A stretch of DNA of 64,000 nt, taken from contig MIAY01000013.1 of NCBI GenBank assembly GCA_001829315.1, forward strand, positions 1 through 64,000, in the 5' to 3' direction. The translations under genes were made by a program, and so were the position numbers. The notes under the pieces are model-generated. The model saw nothing but the letters and a program-made list of their open reading frames with translations, was not told where the DNA came from and did not search any database. The stretch is from Spirochaetes bacterium GWE1_32_154. Lineage in GTDB: Bacteria; Spirochaetota; GWE2-31-10. Positions 215-16,907 of the stretch are shown here, one piece after another (position 1 is the first letter of the stretch; every line of letters begins with the position of its first letter).

Positions 215-940
215 ATGAATAGACTAATATCGGCAGTAATTATACTTATTTCTTTGACGGCCGGGTCATTATTTGCAGAAAATATTTATCTATTTGGTAA
301 AACTTCCTTTACAAATGCACAATTCTGGGAAAGACAGATTTCATCTGATAATACATTAAGTAATAGAAAAGTTATGAGTAACCTAACCGGCGGTTCACTA
401 GGAGTTGGCGTAGAATGGGTTATCTGGGATATTGGTGTTAAAAGAGGTTCAAGGATATTTCTTACAAGCAGTATTGATCTCGTTTTCCTCGGTTTAAATT
501 ATATGGGCGCCACAAAGGATGATATACTGTATAATAATCCCATGACTAATTTTGATATTGGCAACGGTGCAATGTATACAGGATTTGATTTTGATGTATT
601 TGCAGGAGGGACTTTTCCAAAATTAGATTTAAAATGGGGGTTTGGTTCAAACTTCTATTTTATGTTTCCAAATTACTCGAATATATTAATGAGAGAATCA
701 GAACAATTCGCATTTTTTGCAACGCCTTCAATTTTTATTGCTTATGATATTTTTATTCCCAACAGCACTATTAAAATAACACCAATGCTAAAAACAGGAA
801 TAACAACAGTTCCTCTTATTCCCGATGACTTTCAGGCTGATATAGATAAATTCAGTATACTCCCTGAAAACTGGTATAGTGGTTTATATATAGATTTATC
901 AGTTTCAATCAGTTTTAAATCGTTTGTGTGGAAAAAATAA
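215..940 (+). CDS. Putative outer-membrane beta-barrel protein
   Basis: A 241-residue protein with a clear signal peptide (hydrophobic stretch about residues 5-18, cleavage near LFA-EN). The remainder is rich in alternating hydrophobic/polar and aromatic residues and glycine, without predicted internal membrane helices, and ends in an aromatic-rich strand; this suits a small outer-membrane barrel or a periplasmic beta protein. I do not recognise a family. The start ATG has a GGAG ribosome site six bases upstream. It is the first gene of the envelope operon and overlaps the next start by 13 nt. The context with ExbBD/TonB, TamB and BamA supports an envelope role. The specific function is unknown. 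Confidence 0.75.
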   Translation: MNRLISAVIILISLTAGSLFAENIYLFGKTSFTNAQFWERQISSDNTLSNRKVMSNLTGGSLGVGVEWVIWDIGVKRGSRIFLTSSIDLVFLGLNYMGATKDDILYNNPMTNFDIGNGAMYTGFDFDVFAGGTFPKLDLKWGFGSNFYFMFPNYSNILMRESEQFAFFATPSIFIAYDIFIPNSTIKITPMLKTGITTVPLIPDDFQADIDKFSILPENWYSGLYIDLSVSISFKSFVWKK

Positions 941-2280
941 TTTTTTATTTCTATCGTAAGATTATATGCGTTGTTATTTGTATATTTATTCAGCTAATAT
1001 TCAAAATGGATATGCTTTATTCATTAGAAATATCAGGTTCTGAGGAAATTGTAATAATCAAATATTTTGAAGACAATACAGCCGATTTTATGCCTTCAAT
1101 TTCATTTTTTGATGAAATTGATTATTCATTTTCATCGAATGAAATATCATTTTTTTTCAACGAACACGAAAGTATTGCTACAAAACCGATATTCTTCACT
1201 TTAATAAAAACAGACAATTATGCCAACAATATTCAGATTTTAAATGCACTATTTACTCATACAAAAATACTTTTTACTGATATACCATCAATTAAAAATA
1301 CATCATTTATTGATATAAACTATTTCAGCTTAAACAGCATTATAGAAGCAAACCCGGCATATACCTATGCTGATACAACTTTTTCATTTAAACCTGCAAA
1401 GGAAATAACAATTGGTGTACCATTATTATATGCCAATCAAAAAACAACATCAGGAATCGGTTTTCAATTTAAAAAAAAATTAATTGATCTAAACCATCAA
1501 CTTCTACTGGCTTCACCTGTATCTTCATTCAAACCCCAAGTCATAACCTCATCGTATAATAGAATTGACAATTTTTACTTTAACGGTCAAATGATCATTA
1601 GTGATCAATATCTTAAAAATGAATTTGAAATCATGTACAAAAATAACTTTTTATTTACCGGAATACATAATAATACAAGCCTATATGATTATAACAAAAT
1701 CTATTCATTCTTTGCATTTTCAATATCACTCTACATAAAAAATCATACAATCTCATTATTCAGCAAAACAAGAAGTAATTTAAAATACTCATTTAATCAT
1801 AGTAGTTTATTTTTTCAAAAAAATTATTATTCCGGGATTGACTATACTATTCAATATAATTATTTTTTTATTTCCAATACAACCGGAGTAACGGGCGAAA
1901 AAAATCCGCTTGAATTAACATCAGATCAATTTAAACCGGATGTCCCCTTCATTATTCTCCAAACAAAAGGCGGATATAATAATTCATATTTTCTATTTTC
2001 AAGTGAATTTAACTTCTTATATTCGTTAAACAACACATTTGAGTATTCATTTTTAATCGCTATAAAAGACTTACATTTTTTTAATTTTACTTTTGATATT
2101 TCAAACGGACTTATTTCTAATAATTTTAATTATTTCATTAGATTTGACAATAATGTAAAAATTAGTTACCGTTTAAATTATTTTGGTATATTCTATTTTG
2201 ATGCAAACCTATCAACTGAATTTGCGCAAATTTTTTCGAATAAAATTATTTTTACAATTGGCAGTTTGTTTACATTTTAA
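928..2280 (+). CDS. Unrecognised envelope protein, likely outer membrane
   Basis: A 450-residue protein. Residues about 3-30 form a signal-peptide-like hydrophobic segment after Lys/Arg, followed by a secreted body very rich in Phe, Tyr, Ser and Asn with alternating pattern, as in beta-barrel proteins. The best start is GTG at 928, overlapping the previous gene by 13 nt; starting later, at the ATG inside KMDML, would remove the signal peptide. No conserved domain recognised. It is four bases upstream of the exbB-like gene, so it is almost certainly cotranscribed and perhaps translationally coupled. A partner or client of the Ton or Bam machinery is an inference from position only. Confidence 0.7.
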   Translation: MEKIIFYFYRKIICVVICIFIQLIFKMDMLYSLEISGSEEIVIIKYFEDNTADFMPSISFFDEIDYSFSSNEISFFFNEHESIATKPIFFTLIKTDNYANNIQILNALFTHTKILFTDIPSIKNTSFIDINYFSLNSIIEANPAYTYADTTFSFKPAKEITIGVPLLYANQKTTSGIGFQFKKKLIDLNHQLLLASPVSSFKPQVITSSYNRIDNFYFNGQMIISDQYLKNEFEIMYKNNFLFTGIHNNTSLYDYNKIYSFFAFSISLYIKNHTISLFSKTRSNLKYSFNHSSLFFQKNYYSGIDYTIQYNYFFISNTTGVTGEKNPLELTSDQFKPDVPFIILQTKGGYNNSYFLFSSEFNFLYSLNNTFEYSFLIAIKDLHFFNFTFDISNGLISNNFNYFIRFDNNVKISYRLNYFGIFYFDANLSTEFAQIFSNKIIFTIGSLFTF

Positions 2281-2283
2281 CAA

Positions 2284-2934
2284 ATGAGGAGTATCACATT
2301 GTTCGATATACATACAATAAACTCAGGTTCAATTTTGACATTTTCAATTATAGTATTACTTGCTTTTTTTTCAATTATTTCAATCTCTATAATAATTGAA
2401 AGATTTATATTTCTAAACAGATTTACAATTAATATCAATCGATATAAATCAATGTTTCCTGATAAAATAATTGATTTAAAAATTACTATTTCCGAAAAAA
2501 ATAAAAAGACTCCTTTTGAAACAATTATACTCAGTATTATTAAATCATCGGTAATAAATCGTTCTGAAATGCGGGAGAGATTAGACGCTCAATTTACTGA
2601 AATATACCTTATATACCACAAAAGAATCAACTTACTTGGTATATTTGCGAAACTGTCAACGCTTATCGGTCTTTTTGGAACAGTAACCGGTATGATAAGT
2701 TCATTTAACAGCATTGTCGAAAAAGGTATCAGTACAGCATCGATAGTCGCTTCAGGTATTTCTCAGGCACTTATCACAACAGCAGCCGGTCTGATTATCG
2801 CAATTCCTGCAACATTCTTTTATGAATATTTTAACGATCGAATTGATGGTGAAATCAGAAAAATGGAAATTATATGTTCTGAATTAATATCAACACTTAT
2901 AGATAAAAGTAAAAATTGGGGTGCTTTAAAATGA
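2284..2934 (+). CDS. exbB: ExbB/TolQ-type proton channel subunit
   Basis: A 216-residue MotA/TolQ/ExbB family inner-membrane protein. It shows one N-terminal membrane helix (about 16-40), a long cytoplasmic segment, and two C-terminal helices with the family signature around GLFGTVTGMISSF and the Ala/Gly-rich final helix. With ExbD it forms the proton-driven motor that energises TonB (or Tol). Start choice is uncertain: the ATG at 2284 has no ribosome site, whereas a TTG at 2299 follows a GGAG (2288-2291) with seven-base spacing and may be the real start. The stop overlaps the exbD start (ATGA). Whether it is ExbB or TolQ cannot be settled by sequence alone; the TonB-like gene two genes downstream favours ExbB. 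Confidence 0.88.
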   Translation: MRSITLFDIHTINSGSILTFSIIVLLAFFSIISISIIIERFIFLNRFTININRYKSMFPDKIIDLKITISEKNKKTPFETIILSIIKSSVINRSEMRERLDAQFTEIYLIYHKRINLLGIFAKLSTLIGLFGTVTGMISSFNSIVEKGISTASIVASGISQALITTAAGLIIAIPATFFYEYFNDRIDGEIRKMEIICSELISTLIDKSKNWGALK

Positions 2935-3338
2935 AGTATAAGCATTTTAGAAAACCATCTTCCGGTATTGATATGACACCGATGATGGATATTATATTTC
3001 TAGTACTTATTTTCTTTATGGTCGGAGCAACATTTGAAATGAATAGAGCGTTGAATATGAATCTGCCTCGTTCCTTTTCATCAGAAGGAACCATTTCACA
3101 AAATAGAATTCTTATAGAAATCAATAGTAAAAGCGATCTTGCCGTAAATGGCATCCGGGTTACTTTAAACGAACTTTCAAATAACATCATTTCTCATACT
3201 AATAGTACTGATACAGAAATATTTATTATGGCGGATGAAGTTGTTCCGTATAAATTAATAATAAATGTAATGGACTTAATAAAAATTCTCGGCTTTGAAA
3301 AAATCTCATTAGTTACTGATATTAAAAAGGAATTATGA
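2931..3338 (+). CDS. exbD: ExbD/TolR-type motor subunit
   Basis: A 135-residue ExbD/TolR family protein: short cytoplasmic N-terminus, a single membrane helix with the signature DMTPMMDIIFLVLIFFMV, and a periplasmic domain. The Asp in the helix (D20) corresponds to the protonatable residue that couples proton flow to TonB/TolA movement. The ATG at 2931 overlaps the exbB stop as ATGA, indicating translational coupling; an upstream TTG-started version (2916) is less likely. The tonB-like gene starts one base after its stop. Confidence 0.9.
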   Translation: MKYKHFRKPSSGIDMTPMMDIIFLVLIFFMVGATFEMNRALNMNLPRSFSSEGTISQNRILIEINSKSDLAVNGIRVTLNELSNNIISHTNSTDTEIFIMADEVVPYKLIINVMDLIKILGFEKISLVTDIKKEL

Positions 3339-3339
3339 T

Positions 3340-4005
3340 ATGGATAGAGGTTTCAGAATTTTTCTGATTATCTCTTTTTTTCTTCATATTCTTGCAGGTT
3401 GTCTATTTTATTCTTTTTATATAAAAAATAGAATCACATTCAAAAAAGAAGAAAATAAAATTATTGATATAAAAATGATTAAAAAATCTGATTTTGCTAC
3501 GCATAAAAACTCACAGATCGAGAGTACAGGAACCGGACATCAAGGATTGCAGGACATCATCACACATACGATTCAAATTGATAGTATTAATAATCAGCAA
3601 TCTAATCCAAATAATACAATTAACTATTCAATAAGCTCATACAATTCTTTACAAACCTTTAAAATTGATAAAAATGTAAATATTCTCAATAAAAATAACA
3701 TAGTTGAACCAAATTGGGATATTAATGATTATAGTGAAGGTATAAGTTTTACAAACGGTGAATATAGAAAACTAATAGCGTATGATACAACTTTACTGGA
3801 AAGTTTTGAATTTGTATCTGATAATGAAATGACATTATTATTAACGATTAATTCAGAGGGACATATTGAAAATATTGATATTACTGAATCAACCGGCGAC
3901 ATGGATAATGATCGGAAAATAAGTAACATAATAAGCACATGGCGATTTGAAAAAGGTATAAATTTACAAAGAGGTATTTTGAAGCTAAAATATTTTTTAA
4001 AATGA
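3340..4005 (+). CDS. tonB: TonB-like energy transducer
   Basis: A 221-residue protein with one N-terminal membrane anchor (about residues 7-26), a long polar Asn/Ser-rich periplasmic linker, and a C-terminal region (about 160-221) resembling the TonB C-terminal domain: LLLTINSEGHIENIDITES, then a helix and a final basic beta strand. The usual Pro/Lys-rich linker is missing, as in many non-proteobacterial TonB proteins. Family knowledge: TonB carries ExbBD-derived energy to outer-membrane receptors. No TonB-dependent receptor is in the window. Its stop overlaps the tamB start (ATGA). TolA-like function is an alternative. Confidence 0.75.
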   Translation: MDRGFRIFLIISFFLHILAGCLFYSFYIKNRITFKKEENKIIDIKMIKKSDFATHKNSQIESTGTGHQGLQDIITHTIQIDSINNQQSNPNNTINYSISSYNSLQTFKIDKNVNILNKNNIVEPNWDINDYSEGISFTNGEYRKLIAYDTTLLESFEFVSDNEMTLLLTINSEGHIENIDITESTGDMDNDRKISNIISTWRFEKGINLQRGILKLKYFLK

Positions 4006-7000
4006 GAAAATTTAATAAAAAAATAATTATTACATTCAACATCTTTATTCTTCTATTAATACTAAGCCTTAGTGTTTTTATGATTATATTTATTAATATA
4101 ACGCTACTCAAATTATTTCAAGTAAATAAACAAAAAATAATCAGCGAAATTGAAAATACAATAGGATATTCAATACATTATAAAAAAATATCACCAACAC
4201 TATTTGGAAACATAAGGATTCAGAACCTGACACTAACCGATACAATAAATTTTAAAACAATAGAAATTGGTGATATAGTAATTACATACTCGATTATTTC
4301 ATACTTACGATCAAATAACTCCCCTATAAACGGCTTAAAAAAGATTGCAATAAAACGATTAAATGCATTTCTTTCACAGCAACAGATAATTGATTTCCAG
4401 AATAAAATTAATAATAAAAGTAAACCTGACAAACCATTTCCGGTAATAAATAACTTAACAATAGAGTTTGTAAATTCTAATATTACATATACATTAGATA
4501 AAAATAAGTATATCGATTTATATTCAAATCTTATAAAAATAAATATTGTAAAAAATAAAATAAATCTGAAAACATCTGCAACGTTCAATTTCATCCAAAA
4601 TGAAAAAAAGTTATACTCTTCAACAATTGTAAGTACAGGAAAGATTGAAACGGACAATAAAACATTACGATCAGATTTTTCTATAGTTTTAAAGAATATG
4701 ACACTAAATAAGATTGAATTAGTAGACCAGAAAATTGTATTCAAATCACTCAATTCTGACTTTGAACTAAAAAGAATTAAAGATCCATTACCGATACAAT
4801 TTTCAATATCGAAAATCGATCAAATAATACATGCAAATCTTGATATAAAGAATTTAAAAACAGCAAAACTCTTTACAAAAAACCCTATAAAAAATCTTCC
4901 TGATTTCATTACAAACACACTATCATTTGAATACAACATTACAACAAAAAAAATAGATTCTAATCTGAAAGGAAATCTGATATTTAACACAATAATTTCA
5001 TTAGGCGCAACAAAGATTCTGTATGATATTTCACTATCAAAGAATACTATCAATATAAAAAACTGTTCTATTCAATCTCTCAATAATAATGGGCATCTTT
5101 TAATTTCCGGAATATATAATTTTAAACAAAATATACCGCTGATAACCATAACTGCCGATAAATTTAAAGTTTTTTCATCTGAAATATCATCAAAAATCTC
5201 TATTACCGGTGATGAGTCATTAATCAATATCCAATCGGATTCTTTTATATCAAACAATGTCAATTTAGGAACATTTCACTATCAGGTTAAAAATTTTAAT
5301 AAAACTGACACAATCATTCCATTTAACGGTTTAATAATTTCATCAGAAAATAATTCATTCAGTATTAATGCCAGATCATTTAAAATAACCCCTTTTTTAC
5401 CCCTGGGATCTAAAATAATATCAAAGGATTTTTCACTTGATTCCGATATTGAACTACTTCTTTCTAAAAATACTATACTAGCTAAAAAATTATATTTTTT
5501 ATTAAAATCAGAAAATAACAACCTATTTTCCTGTTCTGCTGCTGTTCTAAAGAAAACAATAAAAATCTATGATGTAAAGATTAAAAATAAATCTACTGAA
5601 TATAAACTATCAATTAATCAATTAAAAGAATCTCCCGGATACAGTATAGTATTATACTCTAATTCAATAACACATTATTTTGCACTCACTTTTAACAATA
5701 GTCGTATTACATTGAGCAATAACAATAATCTTTTCTTCAGCACTTTCAATGACACATTATCATTATACCTTTCAGATTTTACATTACCAATAATTAAAAA
5801 TACAATTAAAATGAGCTGCTCTATTTCTGCAAACACTAAAACAGGTAATATTGTAAAAAATAAAATAATAATTACCGGACTTCCCGGCTTTAATAATAAG
5901 AAGGCTGATTTTTCTACTTTTTTTGAAATAAAAAATAATTCACTTACATTATCCCAAATTGAATTTATTAATGCTAACAATCGAATTACGGGACAACTAT
6001 CTGGAACAATAATAAAAAATCCGGAATCAACAATTATTGAAGGTACGTCTTTATTAACTGATGAGAAACAAAACGAATCATATTCACTCAACTTTAAACT
6101 ATCCGAAGGTAATATCTCATCCCGTTTTTTTATAACAAACATGCAATTAAATAAGTTACTAGGAGCAAAAAGTTCCGGTTTCATTAACCTCCGGGTTAGT
6201 GCAAATGGTAAAATTACCAATCCGGATATTTCTATTGAAGGAGATACAAAACAGGCTGTTTTAAATAAAAGTAAAATACGGGCTTTCTTTATTGTAAAGA
6301 AAGAAAAAAATCTTTTTAAAATCGACAATTTAATTATTGAATCCGGGAATAAATTACGTTTACAATTAAATAAATCTTCTTTTCTTCTTGACAACACTCA
6401 ATTAAATAATATCAATCTTTTTGGTGATGTCTATATCAATGTTATTGATAAAAAAATTAAAAGTACATTTAAATTAGCAGGAAAAATAAATTCTATCAAC
6501 AATTATTTACTTGATTTAAATCTTGTATCAACTTCTATAGCATACATGAAAAATAGAAAAATATCTGATATTGATAAAATTGATAATTTATTATTTTCAC
6601 TTCGTGCCTCAGATGATCTTTTTACATTGCAATCGGTGAATTCGAATATCGTAACATTTTATATAAATAACAACTCAATTTCAGGTAATATTTTTATTAA
6701 TGACAAAAGAACATTATCAGTAAATCTTTCAAAAGATGAGAATAAAAATTTACTTGGAGATATTTCACTGCATGATTTTCCTATTAATATTTTTAATGTC
6801 ATAACAAAACCCTATGTTAATTTTTATAAAGGTAATATATCGGGAAAATTAACAGCATCAGGGACAATAAATAATCCTGAAATTTTTGGTCAAATTAAAT
6901 TGTATGAGGGCGAAATTACCATTCCTGATTATTTATCAAAACCAATTTCAAATATCAGTGGCATTATTAATGCTAACGGGAAAAAACTTAATGTAATAAA

Positions 7001-8171
7001 TATTACAGGAAATTCTGCAGGCGGGCTGGTTAACGGATATGGAGATATTGGTTTAAACAAAGAAAACCGGTTTGACGGTTATCATTTCACAGTGAATTCA
7101 GAAACTGTTCCTGCTCAATTTAAATATAGTGTTATTGATATCTCAGGTGAGGCTCTTGTAAACTCATTCATTTTTGAAGGAAGACCGGGACATTACGGAT
7201 TTATTGGTGATATTTTTGTCGACAAAGCAAATATCAATATTTCAAATTTTTCTAACAATGCACCATCCGTTGAAAAACCACTTGATCAAAAAAAAATACC
7301 GCTATTTGTTTTATTACAATTTACCACAGGAAAAAAGATTGAAGTAACATATCCTTTAATTAACGGTATAATTGCTAAGGGCAACAAACTAACGGTTCAG
7401 TATTCGGCAGTTGATGATCAATTAGGTTTTTTAGGTACACTTAATTTTCGAAGCGGAAAAATTAATTATCTTAATAAAATATTTAAAATAAAAGAAGCTA
7501 CTATTCGATTTGACGAAAACACTGAAGGATTAAATCCGGATGTAAATATCGTATCATCATATCAAACTCGTGATAACAATAGAAACAAGGTTGAAATATT
7601 TTTAAACATTATTGATAAGTTATTCTCTTTTAAGACTATTTTTTATTCAACACCACAATTATCAGAATTTGAACTCAATCAATTACTTGGTCTTGGATAT
7701 AACTCAACAGATAATGTAGAAGGTGAATTAGTTTCCGGAATCCGGGGTCTTGAATCAATACAAAATACAACAAATTATCTGGGAAACACATTTTTATTTA
7801 ATCCAATTGAAAATTATGTAAAAAGAGTGTTAAACTTGGACGCTTTTTCATTTAATTCATATATATTCGGTAACGTATTAACGTCAGATAAAACATTACT
7901 GGATATGCTTGATAACACAAGTCTATCAATTGGGAAGTACATAACGGATGGATTTTATTTGGAATCTTTAATGACATTTAATAAAAATAGTGGTATAAGT
8001 GGAGGAAATTTTATGCCTTTATCGGAAACTGATTATGGATTCAACCTCAAGCTCCAGGTTCTTTTGGAGTTACCGTATATTTCGTTGGGTTATTCATACA
8101 AACCAACAGATATAAATAATTTTGCAAATGCAGAACAAAAAATTTCAATTGAAACAAGTTTTAAATTTTAA
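4002..8171 (+). CDS. tamB: TamB/AsmA-like envelope bridge protein
   Basis: A 1389-residue protein with a single N-terminal membrane anchor (about residues 7-33), a very long repetitive beta-rich body typical of bridge-like lipid-transfer proteins, and a C-terminal DUF490/TamB domain (about 1000-1389) with its characteristic GxLTAxGTIxNPEIxGxIKLxxG pattern near residues 945-975. TamB-family proteins span the periplasm and are implicated in phospholipid transport and outer-membrane protein assembly. It overlaps tonB by 4 nt and lies 15 nt before bamA; this tamB-bamA pairing is common in diderm bacteria outside Proteobacteria. The size and the conserved C-terminus make the call firm. Confidence 0.88.
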   Translation: MRKFNKKIIITFNIFILLLILSLSVFMIIFINITLLKLFQVNKQKIISEIENTIGYSIHYKKISPTLFGNIRIQNLTLTDTINFKTIEIGDIVITYSIISYLRSNNSPINGLKKIAIKRLNAFLSQQQIIDFQNKINNKSKPDKPFPVINNLTIEFVNSNITYTLDKNKYIDLYSNLIKINIVKNKINLKTSATFNFIQNEKKLYSSTIVSTGKIETDNKTLRSDFSIVLKNMTLNKIELVDQKIVFKSLNSDFELKRIKDPLPIQFSISKIDQIIHANLDIKNLKTAKLFTKNPIKNLPDFITNTLSFEYNITTKKIDSNLKGNLIFNTIISLGATKILYDISLSKNTINIKNCSIQSLNNNGHLLISGIYNFKQNIPLITITADKFKVFSSEISSKISITGDESLINIQSDSFISNNVNLGTFHYQVKNFNKTDTIIPFNGLIISSENNSFSINARSFKITPFLPLGSKIISKDFSLDSDIELLLSKNTILAKKLYFLLKSENNNLFSCSAAVLKKTIKIYDVKIKNKSTEYKLSINQLKESPGYSIVLYSNSITHYFALTFNNSRITLSNNNNLFFSTFNDTLSLYLSDFTLPIIKNTIKMSCSISANTKTGNIVKNKIIITGLPGFNNKKADFSTFFEIKNNSLTLSQIEFINANNRITGQLSGTIIKNPESTIIEGTSLLTDEKQNESYSLNFKLSEGNISSRFFITNMQLNKLLGAKSSGFINLRVSANGKITNPDISIEGDTKQAVLNKSKIRAFFIVKKEKNLFKIDNLIIESGNKLRLQLNKSSFLLDNTQLNNINLFGDVYINVIDKKIKSTFKLAGKINSINNYLLDLNLVSTSIAYMKNRKISDIDKIDNLLFSLRASDDLFTLQSVNSNIVTFYINNNSISGNIFINDKRTLSVNLSKDENKNLLGDISLHDFPINIFNVITKPYVNFYKGNISGKLTASGTINNPEIFGQIKLYEGEITIPDYLSKPISNISGIINANGKKLNVINITGNSAGGLVNGYGDIGLNKENRFDGYHFTVNSETVPAQFKYSVIDISGEALVNSFIFEGRPGHYGFIGDIFVDKANINISNFSNNAPSVEKPLDQKKIPLFVLLQFTTGKKIEVTYPLINGIIAKGNKLTVQYSAVDDQLGFLGTLNFRSGKINYLNKIFKIKEATIRFDENTEGLNPDVNIVSSYQTRDNNRNKVEIFLNIIDKLFSFKTIFYSTPQLSEFELNQLLGLGYNSTDNVEGELVSGIRGLESIQNTTNYLGNTFLFNPIENYVKRVLNLDAFSFNSYIFGNVLTSDKTLLDMLDNTSLSIGKYITDGFYLESLMTFNKNSGISGGNFMPLSETDYGFNLKLQVLLELPYISLGYSYKPTDINNFANAEQKISIETSFKF

Positions 8172-8186
8172 GAGGGGCTATTAATA

Positions 8187-11003
8187 ATGAAAAAAATAAT
8201 AATTTTTATTTTTCTATCAATGATTGTATATTCTTATTCTCAAGAGATTGACACCACTGATGATAAGGGCGATATAGAATTAACTACTAATTCTATAGAA
8301 AATAAAGTAATAAATAAAATTATTTTGAAAGGTAATAAAAAGGCTAAAAAAAAGGAAATTGATACTCTAATGATTATAAAAGAGGGTATGAATTTAAATT
8401 TATCTCTGGTTGAACAGGATTATCTCAAATTAATGGAACTTAATTATTTTGAAGATATTATTATATCAACTTCTGATGTATTCGATGAAAACGGTATTTT
8501 AGTTTCAGATAAAATCGATTTAGTTCTTGAGTTTCAGGAAAAACCTACTATTTCAAGAATACTCTTTAAAGGGAATAAAAATATTGGCGTTGGCTTTTTA
8601 CTCGGTGACATAACGGTTAAAAATGGTGATATTGTTGATAAAGGTGCAATTGTAACTGACCTTTTAGCAATTGAAAAGAAATACAAAGAAAAAGGTTTTA
8701 ATTACGCTAAAGTTGACTATGAAATTTATCAGAATGAACTGTTAAATGAAAAAAAACAAGTCCAGTTAATTTTTAATATCACTGAAGGTCCTGAGACTTT
8801 TGTTTCAGAAATTGAGATTTTAGGTAATGATCGCTTTACTGATTCTACTCTAAAGACTAAAATGAAAACAAAAGAACGAAAATACTTTGGTATTCAAAAA
8901 GGTGCATTTCAGGAAAATTTATTTTATGAAGATATAGATATGATTTTAGCATTTTATAGAGACCAGGGATATATAAAAGCAGATATTGAAAAACCGGAAA
9001 TCAATCGGTTTACAATTGAAGAAAACAACACAAAAAAAGAATCAATTAAAATAACATTACTCCTCACTGAAGGAAAGCAATACATTTACGGCGGTATAGA
9101 ACTCTCAGGAAATAAAATATTTACTGATGAAGACTTAACTTATGCATTAAAATTAAGAAAAGATCAGACATTTAACTTTACAAAATTTCAGATTGATTTA
9201 TACGCTCTAAACCTTAAATATCGAAATGCGGGGTATATTGAAACCAGAATTACTGAAATACCGTATTTTGATGAAGAAAATAATACAATTACATACAAAA
9301 TTAATATCATAGAATCAAAAAGAAGTTATATTGAGTCTGTATTTTTTAGAGGTAATGAAAAAACAAGAACCTACGTTTTAGAGCGTTCGGTTTTTACTAA
9401 AGTCGGTGATATTCTTGAGCAATCTAATCTTGAAGCATCAAGAATAGGTTTAATGAACCTCGGTTTCTTCGGTAATGTTACCTACGAAATTCAACAGGGT
9501 TCAAAACAGGGACTATTAAGGGTTATTTATATATTAGAAGAAAGACTAACAGCCGACTTTAAATTCGGTCTTCAGGTAACAACAAGTCAAATACCGCCGG
9601 ATGTAACACTTTTTGGTGAGATATCAGAAAAGAATTTTCTTGGCCGAGAACTTTCAATGAGTGGTAAATTGGATTTATCTATATTTAAACAGGGTGTTGA
9701 TTTTAAACTTGATGATCCGTGGTTTCTAAACTCACCAATAAATCTCGGTGGAACAGTCAAAGTGTATCACAATTGGACACAAAAAGTTTTAAGAAAATTG
9801 ACACCAGATGATTATATTGAGTATTCAGGTAATGTAGCAAACCCGACAGAAAATGATTTAAGAGATTCTTATGATGAATCTGCAGGAACCAATGTTCATT
9901 TTAATGAAAATTATATTGGTGCAGAAGGTGATGGTTCATGGGGAAATATGGGTTTACATGACATTAACTTTGAAATTGGCGCACGAGCAGGTTACAGATT
10001 CTTAAATTATTTCTCAGTTTCTGCAAACTATTCATTGTCACCCATTTATACTTTCTTACCGACAGTTTCAAGTTTATCGACGGAAGAATATGCAACAAAA
10101 GTGAATGAAATTGATAGTGAATCATATAGAGCATTATTATTAAACAATGACGGCTGGTCAGTTAAATCACGAATTGGAACAACATTCTCAATTTCAACAA
10201 CAAAAAGAAGAATTAATCCTTATGATGGTTTCAGATTTTCATTAACAACAGCATATACATGGGGGCATTTTGATTCAATTTCAATTTCGTCTTATTTTAC
10301 CTACTATTTAAAACTAATGGAAATTGATTTTAATAACTGGATATTTAATAATGTCGTTGTATTTAATGCAGGTGCATCATTCTTATTTCCGGGTTTAAGA
10401 AATCTTGGCGGACAACTTAACGGAAAAGATACAGCCGGAAAAGGACCGATATTATATCCCTCTGACTCACTGTATGTCGATGGTTTTTTTATAGGTAGAG
10501 GATGGGGTGCATCAATAGGAACTACATCCGGTTATGAAGGAAAATTAACAAATAAAACAGGGTATGCCCGATTTGACGGATCTATTGAATATAGAATTCC
10601 TATTCACGAACAATTTATCTGGATTGCAGCTTTTATCGATATCGTTAATCTTATCGAAGGGCCAAAAAGAAAATATATACTTACCGATGAAAAAACTGGA
10701 GATACAATAACTGTTGATGGAGAAGTCTTATATGGTTATGACAGTTCTAATTCATGGATGTGGTGGGAGCAAAAACAATCTAATTCATTCTATGATAATA
10801 CAATGACTGACTGGTATGGTCTTGAAAATTGGTATGGTTCTGTAGGCCTTGGTATTCAATTAACAATTCCTCAATTACCACTTAGTTTTTATGTGGTAAA
10901 AAGATTTCAAGTTAATTATAACGGTGGTTTTGAATGGGTTGGAAACACTCCTAACTCACCTAATCTTGATTTTGTTCTTTCTATGGTTGGTATATATTTT
11001 TAA
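8187..11003 (+). CDS. bamA: BamA outer-membrane protein assembly factor
   Basis: A 938-residue Omp85 protein: signal peptide (about 1-18), five POTRA domains between about residues 38 and 450 (each starting with a motif such as ILFKGNKNIG, IEILGNDRFT, IELSGNKIFT or VFFRGNEKTR), then a 16-strand-type barrel to the C-terminal strand ending in Phe. The conserved L6 loop motif is seen as IGRGWG at about residue 768 (family form V/IRGF or GRG). Family role: it inserts beta-barrel proteins into the outer membrane. The start has a GAGGGG ribosome site. It is longer than the E. coli protein (810 aa), mainly from extra barrel loops around 540-590. Essential housekeeping gene. Confidence 0.95.
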   Translation: MKKIIIFIFLSMIVYSYSQEIDTTDDKGDIELTTNSIENKVINKIILKGNKKAKKKEIDTLMIIKEGMNLNLSLVEQDYLKLMELNYFEDIIISTSDVFDENGILVSDKIDLVLEFQEKPTISRILFKGNKNIGVGFLLGDITVKNGDIVDKGAIVTDLLAIEKKYKEKGFNYAKVDYEIYQNELLNEKKQVQLIFNITEGPETFVSEIEILGNDRFTDSTLKTKMKTKERKYFGIQKGAFQENLFYEDIDMILAFYRDQGYIKADIEKPEINRFTIEENNTKKESIKITLLLTEGKQYIYGGIELSGNKIFTDEDLTYALKLRKDQTFNFTKFQIDLYALNLKYRNAGYIETRITEIPYFDEENNTITYKINIIESKRSYIESVFFRGNEKTRTYVLERSVFTKVGDILEQSNLEASRIGLMNLGFFGNVTYEIQQGSKQGLLRVIYILEERLTADFKFGLQVTTSQIPPDVTLFGEISEKNFLGRELSMSGKLDLSIFKQGVDFKLDDPWFLNSPINLGGTVKVYHNWTQKVLRKLTPDDYIEYSGNVANPTENDLRDSYDESAGTNVHFNENYIGAEGDGSWGNMGLHDINFEIGARAGYRFLNYFSVSANYSLSPIYTFLPTVSSLSTEEYATKVNEIDSESYRALLLNNDGWSVKSRIGTTFSISTTKRRINPYDGFRFSLTTAYTWGHFDSISISSYFTYYLKLMEIDFNNWIFNNVVVFNAGASFLFPGLRNLGGQLNGKDTAGKGPILYPSDSLYVDGFFIGRGWGASIGTTSGYEGKLTNKTGYARFDGSIEYRIPIHEQFIWIAAFIDIVNLIEGPKRKYILTDEKTGDTITVDGEVLYGYDSSNSWMWWEQKQSNSFYDNTMTDWYGLENWYGSVGLGIQLTIPQLPLSFYVVKRFQVNYNGGFEWVGNTPNSPNLDFVLSMVGIYF

Positions 11004-11016
11004 ATTGGAGAAATAA

Positions 11017-12804
11017 ATGAAAAAAATTATTGTTTTACTATCAATACTTACAACAGCTCTTATTCATGCAGAGATTTTGAATTTTTCAAACACTGACACA
11101 AAGGATGAAAAGACTTCAGTTGAAAAAGATATTGAAATATTAAAAAGAGAAATCGAGGAATTAAAATCAAAAACCTCATTTTTAGACTTCAAATTATCCG
11201 GAGGAACAAAAATAACATGGGGAATCAATTTTAATGACAATCCTTTTGGCTTCCTCGGCAATGCAGCAAGTACAAAACAGCCGATACACGGATTTGATTT
11301 TGAAAACAATATCAAACTTGATTTAAATCTTAATAATAATGTTGTTACAAAAAAAAATAGTGATTATGACTTTTCAGAGGTAGTCTTTAAGTTTAAAATG
11401 AAAACGATCCGTCCTGTCCCTTATGATTATGCACCGCTCGATGGTGATTACTATGTGGTTGAAGCTAAAGATCAGGATGGAAACCCAAAGGAAATATATT
11501 TCCCGAAAAATGATGAAGGCGGTAATGACCTTGTTGTGGGTAACTTTAAATTTGTTCTTGAACAAGCTCGATTGTCGAATCTTCTCGGAACCGGTTTTTT
11601 TATAAATTATGCTGATGTAACAAATGTTAACACCTATTATGGTATTGAACCGATTATTGATGTCCTTAAACTTAATCATGATTATTTTAATAATAAGTTT
11701 TATGGCAAAAACAATCTATGGTACTCATTTGATTATTCAGATTACGAACCGGAAGCCTATACTGCAGAAGCAGTAGAGTTCTGGTCATCAAATGAACTAT
11801 CTCCTACACAATCTCCTCATGGTTTTTCTTTAGGAATGGATAACAGTATAACAAACCAGTTTGATTTCTTTATAGAAGCAGGGATTGCATCAAAAGATAA
11901 TTTTGATCCGATAGAAAATACTGACAATATCATTGATTATGGTTTTTTCTTAAAATGTGAACCTACCTTTAAAACTGAACAAATAGTATTAGCCCCGAAA
12001 ATTCATTTTGGCTTTGCATTTCAAACACAAACAGTAAATGATATCGGCGCGGACTGGTCTTCATTAAACCTGGCAGTTTCACTACCGGCTAAACTTCAAA
12101 TCAATGATATGGATTACGCATCTATTGAATTAAATACTAATTATAAAAGACATATTGCTTTAGCCGATAACGCATTTATGATTTCATTAAACCCTAAACT
12201 TTCTATTTTAAAAAATTCATTATTTATCAATATACCTATCCAATACTGGTATAAAGATGGTCAGGGTGGTTTGCAGGAAATTAAAAACTTTAGTGGTGTT
12301 ACCTATACACAAATACAGGAAGAACATATTTTTAATGTTGCATTTATTACCGGTTACAAATCAAATAACTTCTTTTCTGATAATTTTGAATATAAAATAA
12401 CAAATAATACATACCTCACAACAATATATGATAATGAAGCAGAATTTTTTATGCACAATATATTAAAAAATGAATTTTATTTTTATAATGTTCCATTCCT
12501 TGGTTCGTATGTTACAATGGAATCATTTGTTTTATATACAGATATTGGTTATGCTTTTGCAAAAGACGCACGATATGAAAAATTTGTTCAAATTGATAAT
12601 TCAAATGTTCGGGTTGTTTCTACTGAGAAATTAGCACAATCAAATGTATTATTTGGTGAGTTTGGATTTATGATGAATTTTACTCCAAATATGACAGCCG
12701 GTTTTTCTGTTAACTCTCCTAAAATCAATCTTGATATGAATGATACTATTGGTAATCAAAATACTTTTACAACACTAAAAATATGGTCGGAGATTAAATT
12801 ATAA
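11017..12804 (+). CDS. Putative outer-membrane beta-barrel with coiled-coil
   Basis: A 595-residue protein with a signal peptide (about 1-18), a short coiled-coil (about 34-55, VEKDIEILKREIEELKSK) and a long beta-rich body with regularly spaced aromatic residues that ends in a short hydrophobic strand. The layout (signal, short coiled coil, barrel) resembles porin-like proteins that are tethered or trimeric at the N-terminus, but I cannot name a family. It follows bamA by 13 nt with a GGAG ribosome site, so it belongs to the same operon and is a plausible direct client of BamA. Function unknown. Confidence 0.75.
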   Translation: MKKIIVLLSILTTALIHAEILNFSNTDTKDEKTSVEKDIEILKREIEELKSKTSFLDFKLSGGTKITWGINFNDNPFGFLGNAASTKQPIHGFDFENNIKLDLNLNNNVVTKKNSDYDFSEVVFKFKMKTIRPVPYDYAPLDGDYYVVEAKDQDGNPKEIYFPKNDEGGNDLVVGNFKFVLEQARLSNLLGTGFFINYADVTNVNTYYGIEPIIDVLKLNHDYFNNKFYGKNNLWYSFDYSDYEPEAYTAEAVEFWSSNELSPTQSPHGFSLGMDNSITNQFDFFIEAGIASKDNFDPIENTDNIIDYGFFLKCEPTFKTEQIVLAPKIHFGFAFQTQTVNDIGADWSSLNLAVSLPAKLQINDMDYASIELNTNYKRHIALADNAFMISLNPKLSILKNSLFINIPIQYWYKDGQGGLQEIKNFSGVTYTQIQEEHIFNVAFITGYKSNNFFSDNFEYKITNNTYLTTIYDNEAEFFMHNILKNEFYFYNVPFLGSYVTMESFVLYTDIGYAFAKDARYEKFVQIDNSNVRVVSTEKLAQSNVLFGEFGFMMNFTPNMTAGFSVNSPKINLDMNDTIGNQNTFTTLKIWSEIKL

Positions 12805-12805
12805 T

Positions 12806-13909
12806 ATGTTTGAAACTCCTTTAAATTTTGATTTACAAAATCTCACCGGAGTAATCGTTGCACTTAAAAAGCCCCTTGTTACAATAACAGAGGTTACTCA
12901 TTCAGTTGATGAAATCAGACAACTGTCAACAACGTTAGGAATAAAAATTATCAATATTTTTATTCAACAAAAAAGTATTATTGACTCTGCATATTTTATT
13001 GGTAAAGGAAAATTAGAGGAAATATCACAATTTGTAAATGAAAATAAAATTGATGTTGTGATATTTGATAATGATTTATCAGGTATTCAGGAAAGAAATT
13101 TAGAAAAATACCTTACTAAAAAGATATTAGACCGGACAAGTATCATACTGCAAATATTCAATAAAAGAGCACGCTCTAATGAAGCTAAACTTCAAGTCGA
13201 ATTGGCTGCCATGGAATACATGGCACCTCGTTTAAAACATTTATGGACACATTTCTCACGATCTGAAGGTATTGTTGGAATACGAGGCGGAGAAGGTGAA
13301 AAACAGCTTGAATTAGATAAAAGAATTATTAAATTAAGAATAATAAGCATAAAAGAAAAACTGAAAAAAATTGATGTTCAAGCAAAAACAAGAAGAAAAA
13401 GCAGAGAAGAAAGTTATACCGTTAGTTTAGTAGGGTATACAAATGCCGGAAAAACAAGCCTTATGAATTTATTATCAAAAAAAAATCTCATTGCTGAAGA
13501 CATGATGTTTTCAACAATTGATTCAACAATTAGAAAAGTTTTTATAGATGATGAATTAACCATTTTATTAAATGATACTGTAGGATTTATCAATAAGCTC
13601 CCCCACTCACTTGTAGCGTCGTTTAAATCGACACTTGATGAAATCAAAAATTCAAAATTAATCCTGCATGTTATTGATAGTTCTAGTGATCGAATTGTAA
13701 CTCACATAGAATCTGTTGAAAAGGTATTAAAAGAAATTGGAGTAGAAAACATACCAATTATAAAAATATTTAATAAAATAGATTTGTTACCCGGGAAAAT
13801 TACAGGAATAGGTGTTTCCACAAAGCCGGAAGATGTTCTAATTTCAACTATCACAAAAGAAGGCATTCCGGCATTAAAAGAGGCAATAAAGAAGTTTTTT
13901 ATTGCCTGA
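12806..13909 (+). CDS. hflX: GTPase HflX
   Basis: A 367-residue Obg/HflX-family GTPase. The N-terminal HflX domain carries the glycine-rich segment GIRGGEGEKQLELDKR (about residues 156-171), followed by a helix and the G domain: G1 GYTNAGKT (about 210-217), G3 DTVGFINKLP, G4 NKID. HflX binds the 50S subunit and splits stalled or idle ribosomes under stress. It begins one base after the preceding gene and closes the envelope operon. A perfect 10-bp hairpin covers its last codons and stop. The protein is shorter than the E. coli one (426 aa), lacking the extended C-terminus, which is common. Confidence 0.93.
   Translation: MFETPLNFDLQNLTGVIVALKKPLVTITEVTHSVDEIRQLSTTLGIKIINIFIQQKSIIDSAYFIGKGKLEEISQFVNENKIDVVIFDNDLSGIQERNLEKYLTKKILDRTSIILQIFNKRARSNEAKLQVELAAMEYMAPRLKHLWTHFSRSEGIVGIRGGEGEKQLELDKRIIKLRIISIKEKLKKIDVQAKTRRKSREESYTVSLVGYTNAGKTSLMNLLSKKNLIAEDMMFSTIDSTIRKVFIDDELTILLNDTVGFINKLPHSLVASFKSTLDEIKNSKLILHVIDSSSDRIVTHIESVEKVLKEIGVENIPIIKIFNKIDLLPGKITGIGVSTKPEDVLISTITKEGIPALKEAIKKFFIA
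13881..13907 (+). terminator. Hairpin over the hflX stop codon
   Basis: A 10-bp perfect stem (AGGCAATAAA, 13881-13890, with TTTATTGCCT, 13898-13907) with a 7-nt loop ends inside the stop codon of hflX. Only a broken T-rich tract follows, so it may be a weak terminator or a 3'-end stabiliser at the meeting point of two convergent operons. Confidence 0.35.
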
Positions 13910-13923
13910 AATATGTTTTATTT

Positions 13924-13952
13924 AGAGCCTCTTGCAAAAATACTCTTTATTT
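13924..13952 (-). repeat. Dispersed repeat copy A (one terminus only)
   Basis: Partial copy of the intergenic element family. Read on the - strand it is the right-hand end of the element: AAAGAGTATTTTTGCAAGAG followed by GCTCT. It overlaps the stop codon of the kinase gene (13947-13949) and fills the gap between two convergent operons. No internal hairpins are present. Confidence 0.7.
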
Positions 13953-15782
13953 AATTATTACAAAAATATCTTTTTCATTATCAACAGAGAATTGAATATT
14001 AATATCATTATAGGTATTAATTTTCAATTCTTTCTTCAGTGTAATATTCTTTTTTTTATTATAAAACTCAAATTGATAAACACCCGGTCGTAAATACAAT
14101 GTCTTAATACTTTCTTTAATTCTAAGATTTGTTGTTTTGGTGAAATTTTTATCATCATACACCAATGAGAAAGCATTAATCTTTAATTGAAATTCAATTG
14201 GTGGTACATTAATAGTAATTAAAGCAGCTTTAGGAGTTAATGAAAAATTTAGAATTAAATTATGTTGAAATCTTGAAACTTCAACTTTATGCAAATAAGC
14301 AGTATTATATCCATTAGAAACTGTGTAAAAATCATAAAAATAATCATTTTCCAATGTAAGTGATTCAGTTAATAATATCCATTTCTCAGTACCTGAAATA
14401 CGATAATATGTCCGGTAATTTTTAATAGACTTTCTTGTTTCTATATCAAAAACATTAATAAAATAATTGATCTCATCTTGTGGAGGAGCAACAATTTTAA
14501 GTGGTATTTTATTGTTTCTAATAATAGAGTATGGTTTAATAGTTATATTTTTTGTATAAACGGTATTATTAAAATATATATGAAGAGAGTATAAATCTGA
14601 CACAAAGATTTTATTACGTTGAAGAAACGTAGAAAGTAAATTATTTGATTTGATTTTATAACTTTTTTTAGTGGTATCAGATACAATATAGATTTCCAGT
14701 AAACCCGGATATTTTGGTTTTTCAACTTCAAAATTAACTATACCATACGAATGTGAAGGTAAAAATAAAAAGAATAAATCGGGAATTAATAATTTTATAA
14801 AATTAAACAAAAAAAAGAATATACATAATACTATAAAAATTTTAATAGACCAGTCACCCATCAAACGTGAAGTTGGATAATTTAAAATATACAAATCATC
14901 ATCTTTATACGTATCATTTACTATTGATGCTAATGTTGTTTGAATAATAGATGTGTCAGGAAAACTATACTTAATGAATTTGTTGATTGCTTCTATGAAC
15001 TCTAGCGCACTTTTAAATCGTTTTGATTTATCATGATGCATCAATTTTTTTATAATCTTAATAAGAGCGTCAGGTACATTTTTATTATATTTCGAAATTT
15101 TATCATACTTTCCCTTAGAAATCACCCTCAAATTTTCAATGGTAAATTCATTTGCAAACGGTCTTTTACCGGAAAGCATTTCATAAAACAAAACACCGAG
15201 TGAATATAAATCAGATTTTACATCAACATCTTTTGAAGATTTAATTTGTTCCGGTGACATATAAGCGGGTGTGCCTAAAACAGTACCTGTTTTAGTCATA
15301 TTATCATCAGTATGACTATCGGTTTTAAATGCAATACCAAAATCAGTCAATTTAACATTCCCTTCGATTGAAATCAAAACATTACCGGGTTTTATATCAC
15401 GATGAATCACACCCTTTTTATGAGCATAATCTAATCCTTTTGCAATTTCAAGGGCAATATATGATGCCATAAATATGGGTAATTTCCCGATTTTCTTAAC
15501 TATTTCAGATAAATTATACCCTGCTATATATTCCATAGCAATATAAGAGGAACCGGTATCCTTAAAATAATCATACATATGCACAATATTCGGATGTGAA
15601 ATATCCATCATTATTGTAGCTTCCCGCTTAAATCTGTCGTAAAATGAGGAAGGTGCTTTAGCTGCAAGTTTTTTTAGAATAACTTCTTTACCGAGACCTA
15701 AATGAACGGCTTTGTAAACTTCACCCATTCCCCCTTTAGCTATTTTACCCAAAACAGAATACCCTTTGATTTCTGATCCCAT
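13947..15782 (-). CDS. Membrane-anchored Ser/Thr protein kinase
   Basis: A 611-residue Hanks-type kinase. Kinase domain about residues 8-270: glycine loop GKIAKGGMGEVYKA, Lys37, catalytic HRDIKPGN (D129), DFG (147-149), and the activation/APE region GTPAYMSPEQ. One membrane helix (about 312-341) follows, then a 270-residue extracytoplasmic region with beta-rich, weakly PEGA-like segments at the end. All catalytic residues are present, so it should be active. It follows a PPP-type phosphatase by 6 nt and is the last gene of the operon. The stop codon lies in a dispersed repeat. The sensed signal and the substrates are unknown. Confidence 0.92.
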   Translation of the reverse strand: MGSEIKGYSVLGKIAKGGMGEVYKAVHLGLGKEVILKKLAAKAPSSFYDRFKREATIMMDISHPNIVHMYDYFKDTGSSYIAMEYIAGYNLSEIVKKIGKLPIFMASYIALEIAKGLDYAHKKGVIHRDIKPGNVLISIEGNVKLTDFGIAFKTDSHTDDNMTKTGTVLGTPAYMSPEQIKSSKDVDVKSDLYSLGVLFYEMLSGKRPFANEFTIENLRVISKGKYDKISKYNKNVPDALIKIIKKLMHHDKSKRFKSALEFIEAINKFIKYSFPDTSIIQTTLASIVNDTYKDDDLYILNYPTSRLMGDWSIKIFIVLCIFFFLFNFIKLLIPDLFFLFLPSHSYGIVNFEVEKPKYPGLLEIYIVSDTTKKSYKIKSNNLLSTFLQRNKIFVSDLYSLHIYFNNTVYTKNITIKPYSIIRNNKIPLKIVAPPQDEINYFINVFDIETRKSIKNYRTYYRISGTEKWILLTESLTLENDYFYDFYTVSNGYNTAYLHKVEVSRFQHNLILNFSLTPKAALITINVPPIEFQLKINAFSLVYDDKNFTKTTNLRIKESIKTLYLRPGVYQFEFYNKKKNITLKKELKINTYNDINIQFSVDNEKDIFVIIK

Positions 15783-15788
15783 ATTTTA

Positions 15789-16907
15789 TCACTCATCCTT
15801 ACTAAAATGTTCTGAAAAATCTATTGCATTTGAATTATCATCAAAAATTGTTGAAATTTCAGTTTGATCATTTTCCTGTGGAACTTCAACGATATCATTT
15901 TCTAAAATAATTTCGCTATCTTTTGAAATTGTAACAGCAATCCATTTATAAGGATTATGTATTTGAACAAACCGGTCATTATTAATTTGATTGTAAAACC
16001 CTTTTATTGGTCTGTGACCACCAAAATAAAAACAATTGTGGCAGTTATCTAAGAACGTTTCAAATAATGCATCAATACAACCTTTTTCAGATGAAAAGTT
16101 TTCAGTCCACGTTAATCCTTCTATAAGTTGCGAATCATTATGATAGTTTATAATTCTTTCCCGGTCAAACTTGAAATACGGTTCTGCGTGACTTGCTAAA
16201 AAATGAGATCCAACGACAAATAAGGGTAATTTTTTTTCAAATGCAGCATAAGATTTTATTATATCATTACCATAGAATTTTTTAAAATAATCAATAACCA
16301 TCGCCCCTTCATTTGCAAATTTTGCAAATGAAAAGTTTCCATTTCCTGTTTCATTCAGGATATTTTCATGGTTTCCTTTTAAAAAGTTAAATCGTGATTT
16401 ATATCTTATTTTCATACTCATAATGACAATCATCAAATTGAATGAATCACTAATTTCTTCATCCATTATCGTATGTTTCTTATATCCGTTTAAAAATTCT
16501 TTATACGACAAAACCCATCTTTTTGCAAGATCTCCTTCTGCATGAACTCCATCACCAAGACACAAAAGAGTACAATCACCGTTCTCTAATAAATCAAGAA
16601 GAGTTTTATTATTATCAAGACGCCAGAATAAAAGAGATTTGAAAAAATCTCTACGTGCATGTAAATCAGGTATTATTATTGTTTTGTTAAAAGAACGTAA
16701 ATCAATTAAACCACCCGGTAAATTATTTTTTGCCGTAGGTCGTAATTCACAATCTTCATTATCTAAAACGTGATTAACCTGATCTATTATATTCTTAAAA
16801 AAAACTTTTTCCGGAGGTGATTTTGTATTGAGAACTGTATGAATAAAATTTTCATACTGTTTTTGAGTACAAGATTCTAAATCATTTACTTTTATATTAT
16901 TATTCAT
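15789..16907 (-). CDS. PPP-family calcineurin-like phosphoesterase
   Basis: A 372-residue metallophosphoesterase. Visible metal-site motifs in order: PDLH (D81, H83), GDG (D119), GNHE (N179, H180), SHAEP and GGHR. This is the PPP-type order; the second motif lacks the usual DRG tail (GDGVHAEG instead of GDxxDRG). It probably hydrolyses phosphoprotein or nucleotide phosphate esters. The start has an AAGGAA ribosome site. The kinase gene begins 6 nt after its stop, which suggests a kinase-phosphatase pair acting on the same proteins; that link is an inference. The acidic 30-residue C-terminus is atypical. Confidence 0.85.
   Translation of the reverse strand: MNNNIKVNDLESCTQKQYENFIHTVLNTKSPPEKVFFKNIIDQVNHVLDNEDCELRPTAKNNLPGGLIDLRSFNKTIIIPDLHARRDFFKSLLFWRLDNNKTLLDLLENGDCTLLCLGDGVHAEGDLAKRWVLSYKEFLNGYKKHTIMDEEISDSFNLMIVIMSMKIRYKSRFNFLKGNHENILNETGNGNFSFAKFANEGAMVIDYFKKFYGNDIIKSYAAFEKKLPLFVVGSHFLASHAEPYFKFDRERIINYHNDSQLIEGLTWTENFSSEKGCIDALFETFLDNCHNCFYFGGHRPIKGFYNQINNDRFVQIHNPYKWIAVTISKDSEIILENDIVEVPQENDQTEISTIFDDNSNAIDFSEHFSKDE

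Follow-up and report, generated by a model that had tools for sequence, protein, structure and literature searches.

A run of nine genes on one strand, at positions 215 to 13909, lies at the start of contig MIAY01000013.1 (contig C13 below) of Spirochaetes bacterium GWE1_32_154, and brings genes for ExbB, ExbD and a TonB-like protein together with those for TamB and BamA (Table 1). The window that we analyzed, the first 64,000 nucleotides of this contig, belongs to a genome of 4.03 Mb in 43 contigs (assembly GCA_001829315.1, our genome G000); its base 1 is the contig end, which limits the view upstream. G, C, L and f numbers are our own labels for genomes, contigs, loci and families. The genes follow one another as U1, U2, ExbB, ExbD, TonB-like, TamB, BamA, U8 and HflX, and the eight junctions between these open reading frames (ORFs) measure, in that order, -13, 3, -4, 1, -4, 15, 13 and 1 bp. 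A first reading of the sequence alone (hereafter the original prediction) had described nine genes in 13.7 kb with spacings of at most 15 bp and without a TonB-dependent receptor. ORF coordinates and Pfam matches bear out this layout, and the run indeed holds no such receptor, but four Plug proteins are encoded elsewhere in the genome. The close spacing suggests that the nine genes are transcribed as one unit; the argument rests on spacing because a scan for terminator-like sequences, with one weak plus-strand match inside the run and a total of 5 matches against a chance mean of 4.3, gave a chance-level result.

Table 1. Features of the nine-gene run, with positions counted from the first nucleotide of the window
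Feature	Position	Strand	Evidence or remark
U1, small outer-membrane-type protein, predicted 8-stranded beta-barrel	215..940	+	AlphaFold2, fold match; OprF/OmpA/OmpW-like fold class
U2, barrel-like protein with signal peptide (by eye)	928..2280	+	candidate motor client
TonB-box-like peptide of U2, residues 39-50, EEIVIIKYFEDN	1042..1077	+	conservation rank, likeness by eye
ExbB/TolQ-family proton channel subunit	2284..2934	+	PF01618 (MotA_ExbB) E 2.6e-27
ExbD/TolR-family subunit	2931..3338	+	PF02472 E 1.5e-27; ATG inside listed ORF 2916-3338
TonB-like protein	3340..4005	+	N-terminal transmembrane segment with SxxxH, C-terminal TonB_C-like domain
TamB, bridge-like envelope protein	4002..8171	+	PF04357 E 5.1e-19
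BamA, Omp85 insertase	8187..11003	+	POTRA E 2.4e-42 (5 stretches), Omp85 E 4.3e-15
U8, barrel-like envelope protein	11017..12804	+	N-terminal coiled-coil-like stretch (by eye)
HflX GTPase, last gene of run	12806..13909	+	Pfam GTP-bdg_N, GTP-bdg_M, MMR_HSR1

The ExbB and ExbD family genes are adjacent, the family pair that marks a TonB-ExbB-ExbD system, and the six ExbB rows of this order form a single clade in the ExbB tree (support 100/100). For the third component, the TonB assignment is weak when the window protein is taken alone and appears to hold for its family. On the window protein itself, TonB_C reaches E 0.047 and 14.6 bits, versus a curated cut-off of 24.6, and TIGR01352 gives 22.7 bits, below its cut-off of 27.1; a genome-wide TonB_C search picks up the C39 and C1 proteins described below and scores the C13 protein below threshold. 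Six of the seven rows of the TonB-like alignment match TonB_C at E <= 1 (best 1.6e-6), and a profile of the family, compared to the PDB, finds solved TonB proteins as its best matches (E 0.0015). The transmembrane motif of TonB is given as Ser-3X-His-6X-Leu-3X-Ser in PMC12905483. Its Ser-3X-His pair (Ser12 and His16) is invariant in all seven rows, while the Leu and second Ser of this SHLS motif are off the stated spacing in the window protein (by eye). TamB shows the N-terminal hydrophobic stretch (by eye) and the C-terminal PF04357 domain expected of it, and BamA, with five POTRA domains and an Omp85 barrel, scores 355 bits with TIGR03303, over the cut-off of 297.

The window genome has four ExbD genes: one in the C13 run, one on C1 and two in tandem on C39. 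The C39 set, ExbB-ExbD-ExbD-TonB, adjoins one of the four Plug proteins, and because this is the receptor-adjacent set, the C13 set is counted as additional to it, that is, as a third TonB motor. Receptors elsewhere that were linked to this ExbBD, which the original prediction had named as an argument against itself, were not found, the receptor-adjacent set being the different one on C39. On C1 (L025, G000:C1:543000-560000), ExbB-ExbD-TonB follow AMP-binding and ketoacyl-synthase genes and precede CheB-like and NDK genes.

To what extent the run is kept within the order was examined in nine genomes, that of the window included. G003 carries the full run from U1 to HflX in identical order. G001 has U2 through BamA, with U1 beyond the contig end, and in G002 the pieces stop at contig ends between TonB and TamB. 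In G005 and G008, U1-U2-ExbB-ExbD-TonB are still joined but lie apart from TamB-BamA; G006 has TonB-TamB-BamA together and U1-U2 at another place; in G007, ExbB-ExbD-TonB, U1-U2 and TamB occupy three separate places. The simplest history would be an ancestral U1-U2-ExbB-ExbD-TonB-TamB-BamA run that was later broken up.

U1 and U2, for which no Pfam family was matched, appear to be peculiar to this order. U1 is present in eight of its nine genomes and was matched in none of the 287 others (296 searched). U2, identified by profile and by position next to U1, likewise occurs in eight of the nine and in 8 of 296 overall. The U2 proteins of G006 and G007 were missed by a first profile and found by their position next to U1; their N-terminal version is alignable. 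U1 lies directly upstream of U2 in all seven genomes where both are seen, and U2 lies directly upstream of exbB in six of the eight that have it. The U2 orthologues are 450 to 500 amino acids (aa) long and only about 20% identical to U2 of the window. Two features suggest that U2 is an outer-membrane barrel: the C-terminal residue is F or W in all eight proteins, and an alternating-hydrophobicity score gives z 1.3 to 4.4 in six orthologues versus at most 1.2 in five non-barrels (2.9 in the BamA barrel, 4.3 in a receptor). As for U1, its AlphaFold2 model has eight long strands at a moderate predicted local distance difference test (pLDDT) score of 70.7. The best match by VIA-align is the OprF N-domain, 4rlc (Z 11.3, root mean square deviation 2.8, 126 residues aligned), and CarO, NspA, OmpA and OmpW follow within 1 Z, so that the predicted fold points to a common small-barrel class and gives no function.

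The N-terminal region of U2 is of particular interest. The most conserved 12-residue block of the protein, FEDNTADFMPSI (FEDN and following residues), spans residues 47 to 58, soon after the signal peptide, and ranks first in conservation whether four rows (1/566) or six rows (1/555) are aligned. The octet EEIVIIKY precedes it. Taken as a 12-residue block, EEIVIIKYFEDN ranks 3/566 with four rows and 7/555 with six, and the hydrophobic octet alone 44/570 and 74/559. The corresponding stretches are SEEIVIIKYFEDN in the window, VEEVIVIEKFEDN in G003, VEEIIVIEKFEDN in G002, IEDINIIFDIEDN in G005, IEDINIIIDIEDN in G008, LDPFIIKISKEDN in G001, TPYIFIIEFEEN in G006 and ETDYTFYLRFDDD in G007. By eye, the stretch before FEDN resembles the TonB boxes of receptors of the same genome, whose Plug proteins carry, in front of the plug itself, DELVIERE, KELIIEGK, EELVIVQT and TPLVIYGV. 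A TonB-box pattern, composed after U2 had been inspected, was scored on 170 ORFs of at least 150 aa from loci of the order; it occurs near the N-terminus of nine: four U2 proteins, three TonB proteins and two others. The likeness is suggestive only, and much of the argument for U2 as a client comes from its position and company. TonB-box-like motifs, which the original prediction had proposed to look for, thus turned up in the N-terminal region of U2; inspection by eye of the BamA N-termini at the linked loci showed none.

We then turn to the phylum, where the surroundings of tamB were compared in 75 contexts from 74 genomes of 29 families, each with at least 2 kb upstream. The contexts were chosen by hand, as a rule a single genome or a few from each genus among the 172 of 296 genomes with a Pfam TamB match, plus some found otherwise; contexts of G002, G064 and G103 (less than 2 kb upstream) and a tamB fragment of G008 (L032) were left out. 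Among the 124 genomes without a Pfam TamB match, 80 were re-searched, and 66 of these 80, some more than 95% complete, gave no TamB either by the Pfam model or by our own profile. ExbD was found on the same strand within 2.5 kb upstream of tamB in 11 of the 74 genomes, from 7 of the 29 families (f1, f10, f13, f15, f27, f38 and f43); without G146, which was brought in once an ExbD near its TamB had been noticed, these counts become 10 of 73 and 6 of 28. With two to three ExbD per 3 Mb, a rough estimate of the chance expectation lies far below one genome. In 9 of the 11 linked genomes TonB separates ExbD from TamB, and in ten genomes, f3 included, it is beside TamB (nine by script, plus G095, outside the distance cut). 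ExbB is also at tamB in five genomes (f1, f38), and 67 genomes of 25 families have BamA after TamB on the same strand. The order of the original prediction is thus kept beyond one species, both as the whole run of G003 and as TamB-linked ExbD in these 11 genomes.

Two f38 genomes show the complete ExbB-ExbD-TonB-TamB-BamA order, and in this family a barrel-like protein of 339 or 372 aa, whose N-terminus is conserved between both genomes (LRTFVFLGEGTGF, VRTIDILSEGTGF), has a gene that runs a few bases into exbB. Elsewhere the arrangement varies. In G015, exbB lies upstream at a distance of some 4.7 kb, CorC-like and RNase R-like genes being placed between (by eye), and in L053 (G020) an ExbD in an ORF of 188 aa directly precedes an unusually long TamB of 1966 aa with no TonB between. 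By eye, a lipoprotein-like gene of 496 to 560 aa with shared motifs precedes tamB in f16, f26 and f33, where others have TonB (loci L037, L054, L056, L062, L063, L071, L101 and L106).

The ExbD tree does not unite the 11 tamB-linked genomes: it places f1/f3, with f38 and the C39 pair, apart from the f10/f13/f27/f43 rows (98/96). ExbD-TamB linkage has likely arisen repeatedly; we say likely rather than proven because the tree is built on 143 columns and has long branches. In a control, neither TamB nor BamA was matched at E <= 1e-5 in 80 unrelated ExbB loci, with profiles that were built from this phylum and may miss distant relatives, and with many loci extending less than 10 kb per side. These loci were ExbB-alignment matches from named genomes, no spirochaete title being among them.

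U8, which matches no family of Pfam or NCBIfam, has an alternating-hydrophobicity z of 2.7, and its orthologue comes after BamA in locus L026. HflX is no envelope protein but a GTPase. The next gene starts at 13947 on the opposite strand, convergent to the run, and by eye the minus strand holds protein kinase-like and phosphoesterase-like genes there (13947-16907).

Our preferred reading, tentative and with a probability of about 0.44, is that ExbB, ExbD and TonB of the run form a dedicated third motor, which is encoded next to an outer-membrane client of its own, U2, and expressed with TamB and BamA. ExbB and ExbD would tap the proton gradient and TonB would span the periplasm, gripping the N-terminal stretch EEIVIIKYFEDN of U2 by strand addition, as it does the TonB box of ordinary receptors. 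The pull would move about 100 residues ahead of the predicted barrel strands and so open or reset U2, and U1 would be a small barrel travelling with it. Such a mode of action has a precedent, since TonB and TolA are described as binding the N-terminal stretch of a partner by strand addition and pulling (PMC12905483). We take U2 as the client because U1-U2-ExbB-ExbD-TonB stays together even away from TamB-BamA (G005, G008), and because its N-terminal region, which from its sequence may bind TonB, holds the top-conserved block of a protein that is otherwise some 20% identical. The linkage to TamB is drawn from the whole run in G000 and G003, U2 to BamA in G001, TonB-TamB-BamA in G006 and U1-TamB-BamA in G004. 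The task of the system, we infer, is the building of the outer membrane and not the uptake of nutrients. What it would move is a guess: lipid or glycolipid would fit TamB best, and, judging by co-occurrence, the pull of the motor might serve lipid or protein traffic with TamB-BamA. A fuller version, in which the proton-driven TonB motor powers the transfer of lipid or envelope material along TamB through a plug-less U2 gate, with related arrangements in other families, seems to us distinctly improbable as a whole.

Several observations weigh against U2 as the client. Its profile finds nothing outside this order among the 296 genomes, and Pfam gave a single chance-level match on the eight orthologues and no Plug (PF07715) at E <= 1. 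The AlphaFold2 model, made from five diverged sequences, has a pLDDT of 30.5, and the hydrophobicity signal is not barrel-specific, TamB scoring 2.7 and U2 of G005 1.3 versus 1.2 for a kinase. Conservation peaks at FEDN and the residues that follow, not at the hydrophobic box. The TonB-box pattern fits six of the eight U2 proteins, those of G006 and G007 being the exceptions, and it also occurs in 5 of 165 non-U2 ORFs, TonB boxes being short and degenerate. In G006 and G007, moreover, U2 stands apart from ExbBD; the G006 protein in the ExbD tree belongs to another type, and the tandem pair of that genome lies outside the tree. In G004 (77% complete), U1 is 3 bp before TamB, TamB-BamA come next, and no U2 was matched. 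Finally, in the runs of f10, f13, f15, f27 and f43 no outer-membrane partner other than TamB-BamA was seen.

This last point leads to the alternative that the motor acts directly on TamB, BamA or both, TonB pulling on TamB or on an assembly intermediate and thereby powering lipid transfer or insertion of outer-membrane proteins. It would account for the families without U2: f10, f13, f27 and f43 show no further outer-membrane protein gene, ExbD with TonB recurs upstream of tamB across the phylum, the split in the ExbD tree hints that this came about repeatedly, and in G006 it is TonB that sits with TamB-BamA while U1 and U2 are elsewhere. We nevertheless find it unlikely, as no TonB-box-like stretch is visible in the linked BamA proteins, 22 of the 29 families have no ExbD upstream in the tamB contexts examined, and in G005 and G008 the unit of U1, U2 and motor stands apart from TamB. 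The original prediction had left open whether the motor energizes outer-membrane assembly or lipid transport, or acts on an upstream protein. The latter is the better supported, by the TonB-box-like N-terminus of U2 and its place beside exbB; the former has the recurrent gene neighborhood as its only support.

No more probable than direct action on TamB or BamA, in our estimate, is a housekeeping role for the motor, serving plug-type receptors whose genes lie elsewhere; its placement in the run would then reflect co-regulation of envelope genes. The four Plug proteins of the window genome would suit it, as would G146 and G015, in which no ExbD was found besides the TamB-linked one and which have 3 and 2 Plug proteins; in some families, such as these, the TamB-linked motor may serve ordinary receptors. 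The window genome, however, has its separate set on C39 beside a Plug protein, and in the six genomes with U2 beside an ExbB, that ExbB is the run-type one. A further argument against it comes from G095 (99% complete), in which the TamB-linked ExbD is the sole one found and neither PF07715 nor PF00593 is matched; it is tempered by one Plug in G285, of the same genus, and by the insensitivity of PF00593, which has no match in the window genome despite four Plug proteins. G020 likewise lacks matches to both families, but is 85% complete. An ExbD without receptors is not peculiar to TamB linkage, because G013, G032 and G064 each have a single unlinked ExbD and no Plug match. Very unlikely, finally, is a Tol-like device tethering or constricting the outer membrane, with U1 and U2 replacing TolB and Pal. 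The run does resemble Tol-Pal in its TolQ/TolR-family proton-channel proteins and its TonB/TolA-like transducer, and ExbB scores higher with the TolQ than with the ExbB model (88.6 vs 65.4 bits), as ExbD does with TolR than with ExbD (68.2 vs 54.8), all of these below cut-offs. We rejected these scores as uninformative, the receptor-adjacent set of the same genome preferring TolQ/TolR too. Unlike Tol-Pal, the nine genes, to which the search for TolB and Pal was confined, include neither, and the C-terminal domain of the transducer matches the TonB family, with no TolA model among its matches.

The preferred reading, a motor with U2 as its own client, can be placed among known systems. An operon of TamB and BamA has been described for spirochaetes (PMC4494059) and a hybrid BAM-TAM complex for Borrelia (PMC13382580). 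The present run shares with them TamB directly followed by a BamA with five POTRA domains, and differs from the described operon in that ExbB-ExbD-TonB and two barrel-like proteins precede TamB. In term searches, TonB and ExbB are absent from PMC4494059, and TonB, ExbB, energy, proton, operon and lipid transport from the main text of PMC13382580. With TonB-ExbB-ExbD and its transporters (PMC12905483), the run shares ExbB, ExbD, a TonB-like transmembrane Ser-3X-His and a candidate peptide near the mature N-terminus of the client, whereas U2 is small and has no recognizable Plug. A possible other client family was noted by eye in L147 and L148 (G050, G292), where TPR-like (tetratricopeptide repeat) and outer-membrane-protein-like genes precede ExbB-ExbD-TonB. 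These sets resemble ours in that exbB directly follows an outer-membrane-protein-like gene (about 550 aa), and differ in being absent from the tamB loci of the same genomes (L059, L097), in an ExbD placed elsewhere in the tree and in leaving the U2 profile unmatched. Among the literature matches listed, most subscription papers being outside their scope, we found no recognizable description of TonB, ExbB or ExbD joined with TamB in one system.

How an outer membrane that has neither ATP nor an ion gradient receives its proteins and lipids is an open question, and a motor repeatedly encoded beside TamB offers a concrete and testable candidate. If our reading is true, U2 would be a TonB client without the usual plug, widening the view of what TonB pulls on. 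Should the fuller version given above hold as well, the building of the outer membrane, thought to lack an energy source, would in this order draw its energy from the inner membrane, and related arrangements would do the same in other families.

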